The notes under the pieces were generated by a model, which saw only the letters and a program-made list of their open reading frames with translations, did not search any database and was not told the DNA's origin. From NCBI GenBank assembly GCA_020062665.1, contig JAGUVW010000008.1, forward strand, positions 1-64,000: a stretch of 64,000 nucleotides of DNA, given 5' to 3'. Shown piece by piece: positions 2-11,286 of this stretch. The translations under genes were made by a program, and so were the position numbers. Position 1 is the first letter of the stretch. Each line of letters opens with the position of its first letter. This DNA comes from Pseudomonadales bacterium (GTDB taxonomy: Bacteria > Pseudomonadota > Gammaproteobacteria > Pseudomonadales > Ketobacteraceae).

Positions 2-763
2 GCGCCGGAAGCGGATGTGGCCCGTGCCCGCGCGGCGTTCGCGCAGGCCCGGCTGACGCTGGCGTCCGCGCAGGCGGAGTGGGATACCGCCAGGGTGCGG
101 CTTTCCACGCAGTGGGGCGAAACCCAACCCGCTTTCCATCGTGTGGCGGGCAATCTGTTCGACCTGGGCGACAGCGGCGATTTTGCCGATCTGCAGGCCC
201 GCGTCAGCGGTCATCCATCGCTGCGGGTGCTGGCCGGGGAGGAGCGCTTGCGGGATGCCGAGTTGCGTCTGGCCCGCAGTCAGTCCGGCACGGATATCAG
301 TTGGTCCGGCGGCGTGCGTCAGTTTCAGGAATCCGATGAAGCCGCGCTGGTGGCCAGCGTGAGCGTGCCGTTGTCGGGTGGGCGCCGCAATGCGGGTGCC
401 GTGCAGGCTGCGCTGGCAGCGCGGGATGCCGTGGCCGTTGAGCGCGAAGTGGCGATGCTGCAATTGCGCGTTCAGCTTCACGCAGCGTTTGAACAGCGGC
501 GTCAGGCGCTCGAACTGGCGAACGGTTTGCGGCGCGATGTGATTCCGCTGCTGGAACAGGCCATGGCGGAAACCCGTACCGCGTACGAACGGGGCCGCTA
601 CGGCTATCTGGAGTGGGTGGGCGCCCGCAATGAACTGATCACCGCGCGCCGCGTGCTGATCGAGGCAGCCACCACCGCCCAGCGCGCCCGCGCCGACATC
701 GAACAATTGACAGCGCAGCCTTTGCTGGCAGCGCCTGAATCGACATCCGTCACGACGGAATAA
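2..763 (+). CDS. TolC-family outer membrane factor (CzcC-like), 5' truncated
   Basis: C-terminal part of an outer membrane efflux protein, the trimeric duct that pairs with an RND pump. The open frame continues to the left edge, so the true start lies outside the window; 253 codons are visible. What is seen is the usual long Ala/Arg/Gln-rich amphipathic helices, and a late stretch (YERGRYGYLEWVGARNEL) resembling the second helical hairpin of CzcC/TolC proteins. It ends 10 bp before a periplasmic adaptor gene and is followed by a CzcA-type permease, so it is most likely the CzcC of one CzcCBA operon. It may also serve the second pump, which has no duct gene of its own here. Confidence 0.85.
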   Translation, partial: APEADVARARAAFAQARLTLASAQAEWDTARVRLSTQWGETQPAFHRVAGNLFDLGDSGDFADLQARVSGHPSLRVLAGEERLRDAELRLARSQSGTDISWSGGVRQFQESDEAALVASVSVPLSGGRRNAGAVQAALAARDAVAVEREVAMLQLRVQLHAAFEQRRQALELANGLRRDVIPLLEQAMAETRTAYERGRYGYLEWVGARNELITARRVLIEAATTAQRARADIEQLTAQPLLAAPESTSVTTE

Positions 764-773
764 GGAATTCAAC

Positions 774-1721
774 ATGACCATTTTATTTGCAGACACTCGC
801 CGGGCGCTGCTGCGTCTGGCACTGATAATGACATTGCTGCCACTGGCGGCCATCACGTGGGCCGGTGGTGATCACGGTAGTCATGATGACGATCACGGCC
901 ACGAGGAGGAACAGCGTACCCATGTTCAGATGAGCGTCGCAATGGCGGAGAAATCCGGCATCACCACTGCCGTGGCCGCTGGCGGTGAATTGACAGAAAC
1001 CCGCCTGCTGTACGGCCGCATCGTGACAGACCCGCGTCAGGTGAGCGCGGTGCGGGCACGGTTTCCCGGCCAGATTGCCCGCATGCCTCGCTCGCTCGGC
1101 GACACGGTGAAGGCGGGGGATGTGGTGGCGGAAGTGGAAGCCAATGAAAGTCTGCGCCGTTACAGTCTCACCGCGCCCATCAGTGGCACCGTGGTGGCAG
1201 TGAACGCCAATGCCGGCGAACTGACGGGCGACGCGCCGCTGCTCACCATCGCCAATCACGATCGTCTGTGGGCGGAATTCCGCCTGTATGGCGGCGATCA
1301 GAACGATGTCAGCAAAGGACAGCATCTGCAAATCCGCGTGGACGGCAAAATGCTGGGTAGCCGAATCGAGCAACTGCTGCCAGCCAGTAACGGTGAGCCT
1401 TTCACGCGCGCACTGGCGCCGGTGCCGAATCCTGCTGGCGAGTGGATGCCAGGCCAGTGGGTGGAAGGGGATCTGGCCATTCAATCCGAACAGGTGTCGT
1501 TGCTGGTGGACAACCGCGCGCTGCAAAGTGTTCGCGACGGAATCGTGGTGTTCATTCAGGTGGGCGACGAATACGAAATCCGTCCGCTGGAACTGGGCCG
1601 CAGCAACGGCCGCGTCACGGCAGTATTGAGTGGCCTCAACGCCGGCGATCGCTATGTGGTGGGCAACAGCTATCTGCTGAAGGCGGACCTGGAGAAATCC
1701 GGCGCCGCCCACGATCATTGA
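774..1721 (+). CDS. czcB: Heavy-metal RND periplasmic adaptor (CzcB-like)
   Basis: Membrane fusion protein, 315 aa, linking the CzcA-type permease to the outer membrane duct. An N-terminal hydrophobic signal segment (about residues 11-29) is followed at once by a His/Asp/Glu-rich tract (DHGSHDDDHGHEEEQRTH), the kind of metal-binding leader seen in CzcB-type adaptors. Lipoyl/barrel-sandwich halves follow (around ARFPGQIARM and LTAPISGTVVAVNANAGE). The ATG has AAGGAATT upstream. The gap to the permease gene is 11 bp, so the two are co-transcribed. The metal is not certain; the permease signature points to Zn/Co/Cd/Ni rather than Cu/Ag. Confidence 0.88.
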   Translation: MTILFADTRRALLRLALIMTLLPLAAITWAGGDHGSHDDDHGHEEEQRTHVQMSVAMAEKSGITTAVAAGGELTETRLLYGRIVTDPRQVSAVRARFPGQIARMPRSLGDTVKAGDVVAEVEANESLRRYSLTAPISGTVVAVNANAGELTGDAPLLTIANHDRLWAEFRLYGGDQNDVSKGQHLQIRVDGKMLGSRIEQLLPASNGEPFTRALAPVPNPAGEWMPGQWVEGDLAIQSEQVSLLVDNRALQSVRDGIVVFIQVGDEYEIRPLELGRSNGRVTAVLSGLNAGDRYVVGNSYLLKADLEKSGAAHDH

Positions 1722-1726
1722 GGTGA

Positions 1727-4843
<3,117 letters not shown>

Positions 4844-4914
4844 GCCCAGGAGGATTGTCATGCCACTGTGCTAAAGTTGAAGGCAACCGACCTCAGGGTA
4901 AAAGGAGTTTGCCA

Positions 4915-6060
4915 ATGCAGCCGCGCGCACTACTGCTATTGTTCACATCACTGCTGCTGACCGCCTGCGGCCAGACGCCCCCGCCACAGGCCACGATCCC
5001 CGAAGTGGGTGTGCAGACACCGCAGCGGCGCGTCGTGGAGGTGGCCCACGATTTCATCGGCGAGGTGAAAGCCACCGAGGAAGCAGAAATCCGTTCCAAG
5101 GTCACCGGGCGTGTGGTGTCAGTGGAATTTCAGGAAGGCGCGCTGGTAACGCTGAATCAACCTCTGTTTCGCATCGACAGCGACAGCCTGCAGGCGGCCG
5201 TGGATGAAGCGGTGGCAGAAGTGGCCCGCGCCAAGGCCAACATGGAACAGGCCAGCGCCGATGCAAAACGCTACCAGTCACTGGTGGGCAAGGGCACCAT
5301 CTCGCGCCAGCAATACGACGATGCCATCAGCAAACAGGCGCAGGCCGTGGCGGCTCACGCAGTTGCCACCGCCAAGCTCGATCAGGCCCGCACCCAGTTG
5401 CGGGAATCCGCCATTCTTTCACCTTATGACGGCCGCATCGGTCGTGCCCAGGTCAATGTGGGCGCGCTGGTGACCGCCAATCAAACCCTGCTCGCCACCG
5501 TGTCCACCACCGCCGCGGCGCGGGTGGATTTCGCCCTGAGCGAGCGGGAATACATCCGCATGATGCAGGATCGTGTGCGCGAGCGGCAGACCGAGAGCGA
5601 AATCATCGTGACGCTGCTGCTGGCCGACGGCAGCCTCTATCCCGAAATCGGCCGCATCAGCTTTTCCGATCGTGCGATTTCTTCTGATACTGGCACCTTC
5701 GCGGTATCCGCCACCTTTCCCAATCCCCACGAATGGCTGCGGCCCGGCATGTTCGCGCGGGTGCGGGTGCAGGTGGCGTCGCTGCCAGATGCGATGCTGA
5801 TTCCGCAGAAAGCCGTGCAGGAGGTGTTGGATAAAACCTTTGTCAGCGTGGTGGATGCGGATGGCAAGGTGGAACGGCGTGCGGTGGTGCTGGGCGCCCG
5901 TCACGGCGACGAAATCGTGGTGAAGGAAGGCTTGCAGGATCAGGATCGCGTGATCGTGGAGGGCCACCACAAGGTGCGGCCCGGCGTGCAGGTGAAGGCG
6001 GTGATGCTCGCGGTCACACCCGCCGACGATGCTGCTGCCTCTCCATCCACCAGCGGCTGA
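4915..6060 (+). CDS. RND efflux periplasmic adaptor lipoprotein (AcrA/MexA-like)
   Basis: Membrane fusion protein, 381 aa, for the adjacent HAE1 permease. A lipobox (LLLTAC, Cys about residue 19) predicts a lipid-anchored adaptor in the periplasm. The order is that of AcrA: barrel-sandwich half ([18 protein letters not shown]), helical hairpin rich in Ala/Gln/Lys, second half ([20 protein letters not shown]), then beta-barrel and membrane-proximal domains. The reading frame is open far upstream, but the start is fixed by AAAGGAG at 4901-4907, 7 bp before this ATG, and by the signal peptide. It begins 71 bp after czcA and ends 10 bp before the permease gene. Substrates are not predictable. Confidence 0.9.
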
Positions 6061-6070
6061 GGAGCACATC

Positions 6071-9000
6071 ATGGCACGCTTCTTCATCGACCGGCCGGTG
6101 TTTGCCATCGTGCTGTCGCTGTTCATCACGCTCAGCGGATTGCTGGCGATGGCGGTGTTGCCCATCGCCCAGTATCCGCAGATCACCCTGCCCACCATCA
6201 ACGTGTCCACCCAATACATTGGCGCCAATGCCGAAGTCGTGCGCGAAAGCGTGGCGCAGGTGCTGGAAGACAAAGTGAACGGCGTGGAAGGCATGCTGTA
6301 CATGGATTCCCAATCCACCGGCAATGGCCTTTACTCGCTGAACGTGACGTTCGGTTTGGACAAGGACGCGGACATGGCGTCGGTGCTGACACAAAATCGT
6401 GTGACCACCGCCACCCCCTCGTTGCCGACCGAAGTGAATCAAGTGGGTGTGACGCTGCGCAAGCAGACGCCGGACGTGCTGATGTACTACGCGCTGCATT
6501 CTCCCGCTGGCACCTATGATCCGCTGTTCCTGAAAAATTACGGCAGCATCTACGTCACCGACGTGCTCAAGCGTATTCCCGGTGTTGGCAACGTCAGCGA
6601 GTATGGCAGCGATTTTGGTTTGCGCATCTGGCTCGATCCCACGCTGATGGCAAGTCACGGCATCACGGTGAACGACATCCTGCAGGCGGTGAAGGAGCAG
6701 AACGTGCAAGTGCCCGCCGGCACGCTGGGCCAGTATCCGGCGCCGGACACGCAGGTGTTCCAGTATTCCGTGCTGGTGCAGGGGCGTCTGGTGCAGGCCG
6801 AGGAATTCTGCAGCGTGATCGTCAAGAGCGCGGGTGCGGGCCGGTTCGTGCGCATCATGGATGTGGCACGCTGCGAACTGGGCGCCAAGGACTATCTGTA
6901 TTTCGGCAGCTATAACGGCAAGCCTGCGGCCATCTACGCCATCAACCTGACACCGGATGCCAACGCCCTCGACGTGGCAGAGCTGATTCGTGCCGAGATG
7001 GAACAACTGGGGCAGAATTTTCCACCGGATCTGGCGCTGGACATCGTCACCGACAACACGTTGTTCGTCACCGAATCCATGACTGAAGTGCTGCACACAC
7101 TGTTCGAAGCCATGGCACTGGTGCTGATAGTGGTGACGCTGTTTCTGCAAAGCTGGCGTGCCACCGTGATTCCCATGCTGGCAGTGCCGGTGAGTCTGAT
7201 CGGCACGCTGGCGCTGTTCGTGGCGCTGGGATTTTCCATCAACACGCTGACCCTTTTCGCGCTGGTGCTGGCCATCGGCATCGTGGTGGACGACGCCATC
7301 GTGGTGGTGGAAGCAGTGGAATATCACATGAAGGTGAACGGGCTGTCGCCCCGTGATGCCACTATTCGCGCGATGGAAGAAGTGTCTGGCCCGGTGGTGG
7401 CAATTGCGCTGGTGCTGTGCGCGGTGTTCGTGCCGGTGGCGCTGTTGGGGGGCATTTCCGGCGTCATGTTCAGACAGTTTGGTTTGACGGTGGCGGTGTC
7501 GGTGCTGCTGTCGGCGCTGGTGGCGCTCACGCTCACGCCGGCATTGTGTGCCACGATGCTGCGCGCTCACACCGGTCATCCTCATGGGCCTGTGGCGCGT
7601 TTTTTTGGCGCGTTCAATGCAGGATTCGACTGGCTCAACGCCCGTTATGGCAAGGGAGTGGCGCTGGCATTGCGGCGCAGCCTGCTGATGATGCTCACCC
7701 TGGGTGCGCTGGTGCTGGCGACGGCCGAACTGTTCCGCCAGGTGCCCACCACCTTTGTGCCGAACGAGGATCAGGGCTATTTCCTGGCGTCGGTGCAGTT
7801 GCCCGAAGCGTCCACCCTGGCGCGCACCAAAGCAGTGATGACACAGGTGGAAGCCGTGGCGCGATCGATTCCCGGTGTGGAAAAAACCCTCGGCATCAGT
7901 GGTGTGAATCTGTTGCAGGGAACACCGCAATCCCACGCGGGTTTGCTGGTGGTGCGGCTGAAGGAATGGGGCGAGCGCACCACCGACGAACTGTCGCTGC
8001 GAAACATCATCCTTACCTTCAACCAGAAAGCGCAGGCAGTGACCGAAGCGCAGGTGATGCCGTTCAATCCGCCGCCGATTCCGGGGCTGTCCGCCACCGG
8101 CGGTTTCAGTCTGATGTTGCAGGACAAAGGCGGACGTGGCGCAGCGGCATTGCAGCAGGTGGCGGATGATTTCGTGGCGGCGGCGCGGCAGCGGCCGGAA
8201 ATCAGCATGGCGTTTTCGAAGCTGCAATCCAGCACGCCAGCAGTGCGGCTGGAAGTCGATCGCGACAAGGCCAAGCAGCTGGGTGTGTCGCTGGCGGATC
8301 TGTTCGCTACCCTGCAGACCATGCTCGGGGGCACCCAGATCAACGACTTCTCGCGCTTTGGCCGCACCTACAAGGTCACCATGCAGGCGGCCAGTGAATT
8401 CCGTGCCGACACCAGCGCACTGAACATGCTGTACGTGCGCGGCGCCAGTGGAGCGATGGTGCCGCTGTCCACCCTGGTGCGTTGGGAAAAAACCGGCGCA
8501 CCGCAAGTGTTGAAACGTTTCAACGGTTATCTGGCGGCGGAAGTCGGCGGCAATCCGGCAACCGGTTACAGCTCCGGCGAGGCGTTGGCGGCACTGGCTG
8601 AGTTGGCGGCGCAACTGCCGGATGGTTACGGCTTTGAATGGTCGGGCCTGTCGCGGCAGGAAAAGGAATCCGCCGGCCAGACCCTGCCCATCCTGGCGCT
8701 GGCGGTGCTGGTGGTGTTTCTGTTCCTGGCAGCGCTGTACGAAAGCTGGGCCGTGCCGTTCGCTGTGCTGCTGGCGCTGCCGCTGGGCGTGTTCGGCGCC
8801 ATGCTGGCTTTGTGGATTGCCGGCGCGCCGGGTTCTGTCTACACCCAGATTGGCTTGATTCTGGTGATTGGCCTGGCGGCGAAGAACGCGATCCTGATCG
8901 TGGAATTCGCCAAGATGAAACGGGAGGAGGGCGCCAGCATCCGTGATGCCGCCATCGACGCCGCACGTCAACGCCTGCGGCCGATATTGATGACATCGCT

Positions 9001-9202
9001 GGCGTTCATTCTGGGGGTGGTGCCGCTGATTCTGGCCAGCGGTGCGGGCGCAGCGTCGCGGGTCACGCTGGGTCTGGCCGTGTTCGGTGGCATGCTGATG
9101 GCCACAGTGCTGGCCATCTTCCTGGTGCCGGTGCTGTATGCCCTGATCCAGCAACTGGCGGAGCACCTCACCGGCAAATCATCCCACCCGCCGCAATCCT
9201 GA
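6071..9202 (+). CDS. Hydrophobe/amphiphile RND efflux permease (AcrB/MexB-like, HAE1)
   Basis: Proton-driven multidrug-type exporter of the inner membrane, 1043 aa, matching the length of AcrB. It starts [14 protein letters not shown], the usual HAE1 N-terminus; a longer in-frame start at 6029 is inside the adaptor gene and is not needed. The fourth helix carries the adjacent Asp pair ([11 protein letters not shown], about residues 406-407) and the tenth carries the partner Lys ([13 protein letters not shown], about 937), so the proton relay looks intact. A ribosome site (GAGGAG) overlaps the adaptor stop. No outer membrane duct gene follows; the CzcC-like protein or a distant TolC could serve. 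No regulator gene flanks the pair in this window. Confidence 0.93.
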
Positions 9203-9216
9203 GCGGAAACAAGCAG

Positions 9217-9267
9217 TGGCATGTCAGTATCACGGGCTGACATGTCACGGCACAATCCCACTTGTCA
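9217..9267. promoter_or_regulatory. Phased palindromes, candidate enhancer-binding-protein site (UAS)
   Basis: Two 10-bp palindromic elements, TGGCATGTCA (9217-9226) and TGACATGTCA (9238-9247, a perfect palindrome), lie 21 bp apart, two helical turns. A weaker third copy, CCACTTGTCA (9258-9267), follows 20 bp on. The first two also form an inverted repeat of 12 bp arms around a 9-bp centre. They sit about 110-130 bp upstream of the expected start of a sigma-54 promoter, the normal place for an NtrC-type activator. No T-run follows, so a terminator for the pump operon is less likely. The identity of the binding protein is inference. Confidence 0.5.
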
Positions 9268-9336
9268 CGCGCAGCCGAAAACCCGGTAAAGCCCCGCAAA
9301 AATCACATAATTCGCCCCGCACATTCACGCCCGTCC

Positions 9337-9351
9337 TGGCACTGGCCTTGC
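9337..9351 (+). promoter_or_regulatory. Sigma-54 (RpoN) promoter of the PEP-CTERM gene
   Basis: TGGCACTGGCCTTGC matches the -24/-12 consensus (TGGCAC, five bases, TTGC) with the exact 12-bp spacing between the GG and GC dinucleotides. Transcription would begin near 9363, giving a leader of about 30 bases before the ATG at 9392. Sigma-54 promoters in front of PEP-CTERM genes, with the PrsK/PrsR two-component pair, are known from the exosortase literature. Neither rpoN nor prsKR is in this window. Confidence 0.7.
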
Positions 9352-9391
9352 GAACTTCCTGGCAACACGAATTCACACGCGGGAGCATGCC

Positions 9392-9565
9392 ATGAAAAAG
9401 CAACTGGGACTGTTGATAGGCTTGATGCTGGTGGTGCCTGCTGCATGGGCTGCCAGTGTCGAGCCGGTGAAAGGCGTGTCCCAGGTGCCCGAGCCGGCCA
9501 CCGTGGTGCTGCTGATCGTGGGTTTTCTGGGATTGCTCTGGGTGCGCCGCCGCATTCAGTCGTGA
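9392..9565 (+). CDS. 57-residue PEP-CTERM sorting-signal protein
   Basis: A very small exported protein consisting almost only of targeting signals. Residues 1-20 are a signal peptide (MKKQLGLLIGLMLVVPAAWA). Only about 11 residues separate it from the VPEP motif at 32-35, followed by a single membrane helix (PATVVLLIVGFLGLLW) and a basic tail (VRRRIQS): the tripartite PEP-CTERM signal read by exosortases. The start is supported by GGGAG at 9381-9385, six bases before ATG, and by a sigma-54 promoter upstream. It lies alone between the RND operon and a FadL-type gene. A function for so short a mature peptide is unknown; a structural, signalling or matrix role is conceivable. It is easily missed by gene callers because of its length. 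Confidence 0.85.
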   Translation: MKKQLGLLIGLMLVVPAAWAASVEPVKGVSQVPEPATVVLLIVGFLGLLWVRRRIQS

Positions 9566-9678
9566 GCCGTTCGTCGATTGAGGTCACGAATTTGGGCTGA
9601 TGGCCGGATTTTGCCAGTAATCAAACACTCGTTTGGGTAAAAAGGAGCCAGTCTTTTCCAGTCCTCACGAGTAGTCCC

Positions 9679-11286
9679 ATGACAACAAAAACAAAGGGAT
9701 GGCTGGGGTGCGCCACGGTGCTGGGTTTGTTCAGTCCCGCCGCCACCGCCCAGTTGTCGCATAACATGTCCATTGGTAACCCCGTCAGCCTGGCCATGGG
9801 CAATTCCGCCACTGCCTACATCGAAGGCCCCGACGCCATCCACTACAACCCCGCCGCCCTGGCGCTGGTGAACGAAAAGCACGAACAGTACAAGCTGCAG
9901 ATGGCGTTCTTCCAGCATGAAGGCAGTATCAGCGGGCGGGCGCCCGGGGAATCTTTCGATCCCTTCGACAACCCGGATTTCCGCCAGGATCCCCTGCTGC
10001 AGGGCCAGAAATCACGCCCCATCGAGGTGGAAAGTCCGTCGGTGTTTCTGCCGTTCTTCGGCCATGTGAATCTGCCGTTTTTTGCCGCGCCCGGCTACGG
10101 GTTTGCCTTGCGCACCCAGCGCGGCAATGCGGTGTTTGCCAACTCGGCCTTTGCCGTGCAGGTATTCGGCTACGAGCGCGACGAAGACAACATCGCCGCC
10201 TTCAACGGCCAGCGCTTCGGTATCACCCGGATCGCCTACTTCAACCCGTCGATTGGTCTCGAACTGGGGGATAACCTGTACGCCGGTGGCTCCATCGGCT
10301 TTTCCTGGCAGGGACTGGGGTTCACCAGCAAGATCCGCAGCGCCCTCAACACCATCGCCCAGATCGACACGCTGCTCGACAACCTGCCGGGCATCAATGA
10401 TGTGCTGGAACTCAACCTCAACCCCTACAACCACGTGGGCACGCTGGAAGCCGAGGTGGAAGATCCGCTGTCGGTGACCTTCACCCTGGGTTTGCTGTGG
10501 CAGCCGGAGCCCTGGCTGTCGCTGGGTTTTGCCTATCAGAGCGAGGGCAAGGCGCAGATGAAAGGGGAGTTCAGCATCGAGTACACCGACAGCTTCAACA
10601 GCCTGATGAACACCCTGCAGCCGGCCGGCGGACTGCTGACGCTGTTCGACGGCGCGGCGATCAGCGGCTTGCGCCGGCAGTCCGGCGATGTGACGGTGGA
10701 TTACACCCAGCCCCAGTGGGCGTCGGTGGGTGCGTCGGTGCTGGTGACACCGCGTCTGCGGGTGAATCTGGACGTGAAATGGGTGGATTACAGCGTGGTG
10801 GAGGAACTGCGCTTCGAATACGACCGCAATCTGGATTATCTGGTGTTGTCCAGCGTGGTGAACTACCTGTCGCCCCAGGTGGGCGGCGATTACGCCGATC
10901 CCAATGAATTGCGCCTGCCGCGCGGTTACCAGGCTGTGGTGGACTGGTCGATGGGCGTGGAATACGCCTGGAACGATCGCCTGAAGCTGCGGGCCGGCTA
11001 CGAGCCGCGCTCCTCGTCCATCCCCAATGATCGCCAGGATCTGCTGATTCCCATTGGCGAAGCCGACCTCTACACCCTGGGCTTTGGCTATCAGCTGAAG
11101 GAGCAGAGCCGCGTGGATGTGGGCTTTGGCTACCTGATCACTCGCCTGGACATCGCGCCGGGGGAAAGCCGCATCGCCAACTCCACCATCGAGGGCGATG
11201 TGGTCTACAACCCCTTCCGGGGCCTGCGCGTCGAGCATCAGCTGGAGTCTTTCATCCTGGCCATGACCTACTCCACGGCGTTCTGA
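9679..11286 (+). CDS. FadL/OMPP1/TodX-family outer membrane transporter
   Basis: Predicted outer membrane beta-barrel for uptake of hydrophobic compounds such as fatty acids or hydrocarbons, 535 aa. A signal peptide ends near PAATAQ, followed by the family-typical N-terminus with an NPA motif (DAIHYNPAALALV) that plugs the barrel. The rest shows alternating hydrophobic/aromatic strands (YAGGSIGFSWQGLGF, ITRLDIAPGES) and ends in the C-terminal aromatic residue common in outer membrane proteins (YSTAF). The good ribosome site AAAGGAG at 9641-9647 is 31 bases from the ATG, and no in-frame start lies nearer it, so initiation is weak or unconventional. Substrate cannot be assigned. Confidence 0.85.
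   Translation: MTTKTKGWLGCATVLGLFSPAATAQLSHNMSIGNPVSLAMGNSATAYIEGPDAIHYNPAALALVNEKHEQYKLQMAFFQHEGSISGRAPGESFDPFDNPDFRQDPLLQGQKSRPIEVESPSVFLPFFGHVNLPFFAAPGYGFALRTQRGNAVFANSAFAVQVFGYERDEDNIAAFNGQRFGITRIAYFNPSIGLELGDNLYAGGSIGFSWQGLGFTSKIRSALNTIAQIDTLLDNLPGINDVLELNLNPYNHVGTLEAEVEDPLSVTFTLGLLWQPEPWLSLGFAYQSEGKAQMKGEFSIEYTDSFNSLMNTLQPAGGLLTLFDGAAISGLRRQSGDVTVDYTQPQWASVGASVLVTPRLRVNLDVKWVDYSVVEELRFEYDRNLDYLVLSSVVNYLSPQVGGDYADPNELRLPRGYQAVVDWSMGVEYAWNDRLKLRAGYEPRSSSIPNDRQDLLIPIGEADLYTLGFGYQLKEQSRVDVGFGYLITRLDIAPGESRIANSTIEGDVVYNPFRGLRVEHQLESFILAMTYSTAF

Follow-up and report, generated by a model that had tools for sequence, protein, structure and literature searches.

PEP-CTERM proteins (TIGR02595, PF07589) are exosortase substrates with a signal peptide and a C-terminal tail; in the available part of the account by Haft et al., the putative site of the regulator PrsR is a 17-nt motif that ends in TTTACA and lies about 63 nt before the sigma-54 site, and the exosortase acceptor is drawn as unknown (PMC1569441). 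According to the available part of a second report, transcription of one such PEP-CTERM gene, pepA of Aquincola tertiaricarbonis RN12, is RpoN1-dependent and has a predicted upstream enhancer (PMC9850573). Sigma-54 also acts on type VI secretion: the accessible text of a third source describes VasH with RpoN in Vibrio cholerae as activating the main type VI cluster as well as the auxiliary ones (PMC10482370).

The locus described here belongs to a Pseudomonadales bacterium (Ketobacteraceae; assembly GCA_020062665.1) and lies in the first 64,000 nucleotides of contig JAGUVW010000008.1 (the window; Table 1). It shares with the PEP-CTERM substrates the tail, an apparent signal peptide, a sigma-54 type promoter, and a genome that encodes an exosortase and PrsR, but differs from those treated in the available part of that account in that the 57-aa protein is almost without a mature domain and its gene is without the PrsR box (motif 1 there; PMC1569441). 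As in RN12, a PEP-CTERM gene is combined with sigma-54 type control and an upstream enhancer-like site; unlike the enhancer of pepA, which the accessible text assigns to a previously predicted PEP-CTERM type, the operator here resembles that of type VI genes (PMC9850573). An activator is encoded in the type VI cluster, as in the VasH/RpoN and Sfa2/RpoN regulons, where it acts on the main and on separate clusters, whereas a PEP-CTERM gene as a member sets the present case apart from those regulons as far as the accessible text describes them (PMC10482370). Taken as a whole, the explanation that we favour, with slightly better than even confidence, is that the gene encodes a minimal exosortase substrate and is controlled within a sigma-54 regulon tied to type VI secretion rather than within that of PrsR.

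Table 1. Features at the 57-aa PEP-CTERM gene, with positions in the window.
Feature	Position	Strand	Remark
RND efflux permease	6029..9202	+	upstream; common to sister species, where other genes follow
Inverted repeat over elements 1 and 2	9213..9251	+	stable hairpin if transcribed; no T run behind
Operator element 1, TGGCATGTCA	9217..9226	+	putative; 120 bp ahead of promoter start
Operator element 2, TGACATGTCA, perfect palindrome	9238..9247	+	putative; 99 bp ahead of promoter start
Possible third half-element, ACTTGTCACG	9260..9269	+	TGTCA at 9263
Sigma-54 type −24/−12 promoter, TGGCACTGGCCTTGC	9337..9351	+	transcript start expected near 9362
Ribosome-binding site, GGGAG	9381..9385	+	6-base spacing to ATG 9392
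Minimal PEP-CTERM protein gene	9392..9565	+	57 aa, MKKQLGLLIGLMLVVPAAWA/ASVEPVKGVSQVPEPATVVLLIVGFLGLLWVRRRIQS
OMPP1/FadL/TodX-type outer membrane transporter	9679..11286	+	113 nt gap; possibly same transcript

The small frame opens at the earliest start codon available to it, and its product comprises an apparent signal peptide (residues 1–20/21; KK, a Leu-rich stretch and AWA, read by eye), a linker of about 13 residues, and a PEP-CTERM tail (residues 32–55) that exceeds the cut-offs of TIGR02595 (27.3 bits; cut-off 16) and PF07589 (26.9 bits; cut-off 20.7). Its codon use resembles that of the neighbouring genes: the log-odds per codon are 0.45 in this frame, −1.31 and −0.77 in the other forward frames, and −0.28, 0.01, and −1.13 on the opposite strand; the neighbouring genes span 0.22–0.86 (5th to 95th percentile; 110 stretches of 57 codons), an in-sample range in which the six genes compared are the training genes themselves. 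With a ribosome site, coding-like codons, an apparent signal peptide and a tail, the 57-residue PEP-CTERM protein of the original prediction holds up, and on sequence grounds the frame is a real minimal PEP-CTERM gene, lineage-restricted and with a sigma-54-type control region. The XrtJ target PExPT-CTERM (TIGR04200, a 57-position model) is of similar size, has an exosortase-type tail, and aligns with residues 7–50; membership of that family was rejected at 15.7 bits vs. a cut-off of 40.

The exosortase, prsR and rpoN genes for which the original prediction proposed a search are all present in the genome. Exosortase A (XrtA) is encoded at C15:32220 (300 bits; cut-off 208), and its motifs EACSGVR, NGIRAFG, and ADHLIYG presumably hold the Cys, Arg, and His residues of this enzyme. 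A second exosortase at C53:65708 (170 bits on TIGR02602; cut-off 105.55) is XrtD-like, yet under the cut-off of the XrtD model (303 vs. 400); near it (L126, 7430–11216) is a gene that weakly matches the small EPS protein model EppA (19.7 bits; cut-off 90). PrsR reaches 710 bits (cut-off 502.6), and its gene is adjoined by those of the sensor kinase and a TPR lipoprotein, both read from the letters without a model. RpoN is encoded at C7:157306–158940, its C-terminal 311 aa scoring 403 bits on TIGR02395 (cut-off 277). Another gene, on C88 (L022), encodes a NifA-like activator (539.6 bits; cut-off 528.85) beside a frame that appears NifB-like by eye; the organism may fix nitrogen.

The promoter that had been proposed ahead of the gene is found at 9337–9351, where TGGCACTGGCCTTGC fits what we take to be the sigma-54 consensus. 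Exact TGGCAC-N5-TTGC occurs 22 times in the genome vs. 5 times for the reversed control, and at the weighted score of this site (13.5) there are 18 sites vs. 7 for the reversed control in 1.18 Mb. The sequence match by itself is therefore weak, and its position in front of the gene matters. Upstream, elements 1 and 2 are spaced by 21 bp, only element 2 being a perfect palindrome, and the phased triple that includes the possible third half-element occurs once in the genome (control, 0). Of 1000 dinucleotide shuffles of 9203–9336, 4 reach the observed inverted repeat, 26 the direct repeat, and 5 the triple, in tests framed after the sequence had been seen. A PilR-type operator was considered and rejected: pilA-like sites read, by eye, TGAC-N6-TGTCA, and in the window TGACA abuts TGTCA; a search of the literature for a PilR consensus found none. 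Two type IV pilin (pilA-like) genes of this genome (L089 and L091; C7:78437–79500) have sigma-54-like promoters with TGAC-N6-TGTCA upstream, which are candidate PilR sites.

Elements of this kind recur in pairs before the type VI secretion gene hcp and before a gene near tssH, and the enhancer-like layout that had been proposed thereby gains copies at other sigma-54-like promoters. A survey of 1.98 Mb, covering 34% of the genome, gave 30 sites that agree with TGACATGTCA in 9 of 10 letters, and these yield three pairs 19–33 bp apart, in the window (21 bp), before hcp (20 bp), and at C67:18531 (31 bp), with a motif derived from the window itself and spacing limits set after the C67 pair was known; as a control, 59 scrambled palindromes of the same make-up give 3 pairs from 2567 matches. 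The hcp stretch was sampled before the operator idea arose; C67 was sampled after a site had been seen there, and two of the four operator promoters thus come from a biased look. The hcp gene on C7 (PF05638, 113 bits) is preceded by TGACATGTCG and TGACAGGTCA, 134 and 114 bp ahead of TGGCACAGTAGTTGA, a −24/−12-like site with GA in place of GC at −12 that falls under the sigma-54 filter. Behind hcp come vgrG (TIGR03361, 433 bits), a sigma-54 activator gene (C7:291408–293081), and a TagH-like gene that is cut by the contig end (107.6 bits, under the cut-off of 120.25); no paired operator was seen upstream of the activator gene or at tagH. The C67 pair, TGTCATGTCA and TGACGTGTCA, does not have the spacing of 20–21 bp and lies 99 and 68 bp before TGGCACAGGAGTTGC, a good sigma-54-like promoter ahead of a 204-aa gene (L241, 18718–19332) about 1.7 kb from tssH, for which no Pfam or NCBIfam match was obtained.

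The only other exact copy of TGACATGTCA in the whole genome is on the same contig, C67, at the end of tagF (TIGR03373, 147 bits). This copy, with TGACA 21 bp away, is 184 bp upstream of a sigma-54-like site (score 13.0) ahead of tssA (TIGR03363, 290 bits); further copies of TGRCATGTCA before −24/−12 sites, which the original prediction had suggested looking for, thus include this one. Five other places match TGRCATGTCA: one within prsR (C18), three within other genes (C43, C62, and C67), and one about 240 bp before a gene on C22, with no loose sigma-54-like site between the two. Of the 92 sigma-54-like sites with a score of 13 or more, those in the window and at tssA alone have TGTCA/TGACA repeated 20–22 bp apart within 260 bp, as do 37 of 20000 random positions. 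No other phased ATGTCA pair was found in a scan of 1.18 Mb, which missed hcp because its pair is degenerate and its −12 element is GA. For single elements, 5 promoters (nearby sigma-54 score at least 12.5) lie 60–220 bp after 60 strand-matches vs. 108 for 5134 in controls, a comparison in which individual controls with small counts come out at comparable ratios; two of the five (L204 and L254) are taken as chance, one being inside a flagellin-like frame. The window does have a paired TGACATGTCA-type operator about 70–135 bp before a TGGCAC-type promoter. Because the paired operator is common to hcp and the gene near tssH, a copy stands before tssA, and an activator is encoded in the cluster, the 57-aa gene is probably a member of a sigma-54 regulon linked to type VI secretion, to which the FadL gene that follows may also belong. 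Membership at such a distance is plausible, since VasH and RpoN control genes outside the main cluster in V. cholerae, according to the available part of that report (PMC10482370); no published VasH site was found for comparison with the operator.

The genes ahead of the locus (17–9202 in the window) are of the heavy-metal RND efflux type, directly followed by a multidrug type RND pair, and only this second pair matches the sister locus. The RND permease has a counterpart with 92% aa identity in the same-genus genome G001, where other DNA lies behind it without the 57-aa gene and EpmC (80%) is on a different contig; a divergent MATE-like gene precedes EpmC there, as it does in G004. Searches of 56 other genomes of the order gave no match to the whole 57-aa protein, with two matches to the tail only; the genome_contigs set likewise gave one tail-only match, and no homologue was found in plasmids. 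Loss of the frame in close relatives had been named in advance as speaking against the prediction, and the gene is absent at the RND locus of the sister species. Among the matches listed, PEP-CTERM frames of less than 90 aa number at least nine including this one; seven of the eight others were examined, and six of them look like broken tails. The seventh is a complete minimal protein of about 63 aa from another family of the order (G042:C27; L140, about 2889–3080), beside divergent pilin-like genes. Like the 57-aa protein, it consists of a signal peptide, a short linker, and a PEP-CTERM tail (27.3 bits) and nothing else; unlike it, it has a proline-rich linker, adjoins pilin-like genes, and shows none of the operator. 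The existence of this second minimal protein weighs against lineage loss as an objection to a specific peptide function.

Several other readings of the locus need to be weighed against a type VI-linked regulon. Control by PrsK/PrsR had been proposed, and both PrsR and RpoN are encoded in the genome. A PrsR box with a spaced sigma-54 site stands before all four other above-cut-off PEP-CTERM genes (10–12 of 12 positions; sigma-54 site 51–64 nt on), as counted among the five matches at E up to 0.001 (the two weaker of the seven at 0.01 were left out). The 57-aa gene has no such box in 9203–9391 on either strand, the best candidate scoring 0.3 bits on a model trained on 20 boxes of such genes, 19 of which score 14.5–24 and one 7.0, in-sample. 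A missing box is not rare, since 7 of 20 PEP-CTERM genes of relatives (hand-picked among the matches listed) likewise failed the limits of at least 9 of 12 positions and a sigma-54 score of at least 12 at 49–75 nt, which the other 13 passed. With the box absent here and present in four of four companions, PrsK/PrsR control is not supported, and membership of that regulon is very improbable. The palindromes might, alternatively, fold into an RNA hairpin at the 3′ end of the RND operon transcript rather than act as an operator: the repeat starts about 10 nt past the RND stop codon, its mismatch becomes a G–U pair on the + strand, and 9203–9260 folds at −25.6 kcal/mol with z −4.5 on that strand vs. 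−2.7 on the other. Yet there is no T run, the terminator scan did not report the repeat, an Rfam search of 9000–9800 gave nothing at E up to 1, no such hairpin is seen in the sister species behind its RND gene (92% identical), and paired elements of the same type precede hcp; we give this reading scarcely any credence.

That the promoter serves mainly the FadL transporter, whichever activator binds, and that the 57-aa frame only rides along or assists as the first gene of a two-gene operon, seems unlikely to us. The FadL start is close behind the small gene, no sigma-70-like promoter was found by scan in 8900–9800, and no terminator-like site was found by scan inside the 113 nt gap. Half-sites TGTCAG/CTGACA, 4 bp apart, occur twice before the closest FadL paralogue (C50:50911, 63% identical) and its G008 relative, and the window, C50, and the G008 relative are the only 3 of 30 FadL loci with a TGTCA-N4-14-TGACA repeat within 600 bp. 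Against this, the spacing is 9 here vs. 4 at the paralogues, half a helical turn off; the paralogues are without a good sigma-54 site (scores 11.0 and 9.0); FadL relatives in G004, G008, and G012 (65–68% identical) have neither the repeat nor a full match to the small protein; and the paired operator of hcp is the closer match. The two 16-bp palindromes TGTCAG-N4-CTGACA before the paralogue, 89 bp apart in both genera (L071 1253–1268 and 1342–1357, C50; L072 1249–1264 and 1338–1353, G008:C71), have in themselves the look of a conserved operator. It is also rather improbable that the frame is a functionless remnant of a longer PEP-CTERM gene that lost its middle, or a new orphan beside an inherited promoter: the absence from relatives, the position at a synteny break, and the broken tails among other short frames (six of seven) would fit, but the gene retains an intact tail, apparent signal peptide and ribosome site, along with its promoter and gene-like codon use, and none of 36 other PEP-CTERM-like frames matches both ends. 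A parent protein for an origin by deletion was sought among the same 36 frames, and none was found.

For the favoured type VI-linked regulon, we infer how the gene would be expressed, which protein would bind the operator, how the product would be cleaved, whether the FadL-type gene would be co-transcribed, and what the function might be. RpoN polymerase would bind 9337–9351, and a VasH-like enhancer-binding protein, for which the activator encoded between vgrG and tagH is the best candidate, would bind the paired TGACATGTCA elements about 100–120 bp upstream, switching on the 57-aa gene together with hcp, tssA, and the unnamed gene near tssH; the transcript possibly continues into the FadL-type gene. 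The product would be exported by Sec, lose its signal peptide, and be kept in the inner membrane by the PEP-CTERM tail, and a cut by exosortase A at the PEP motif would yield a peptide of about 13 residues. A further, rather improbable step would make the substrate part of the type VI programme, in which the same activator would call up a precursor whose sole product is a peptide of about 13 residues, linked to the surface or to exopolysaccharide, and perhaps also an outer membrane transporter, for coat remodelling or self-protection during contact killing, and the exosortase would serve as a peptide-maturation enzyme.

A single lineage-restricted gene carries all of these proposals, which limits their weight. 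To our knowledge it has yet to be established what exosortases couple to their substrates or set free from them; if a natural substrate had a mature part of only about 13 residues, mass spectrometry could be applied directly to its end. The paired operator amounts to a concrete regulon prediction. If true, the proposed reading would link exosortase sorting with type VI secretion, two systems for which we know of no earlier link from literature searches directed at other questions.
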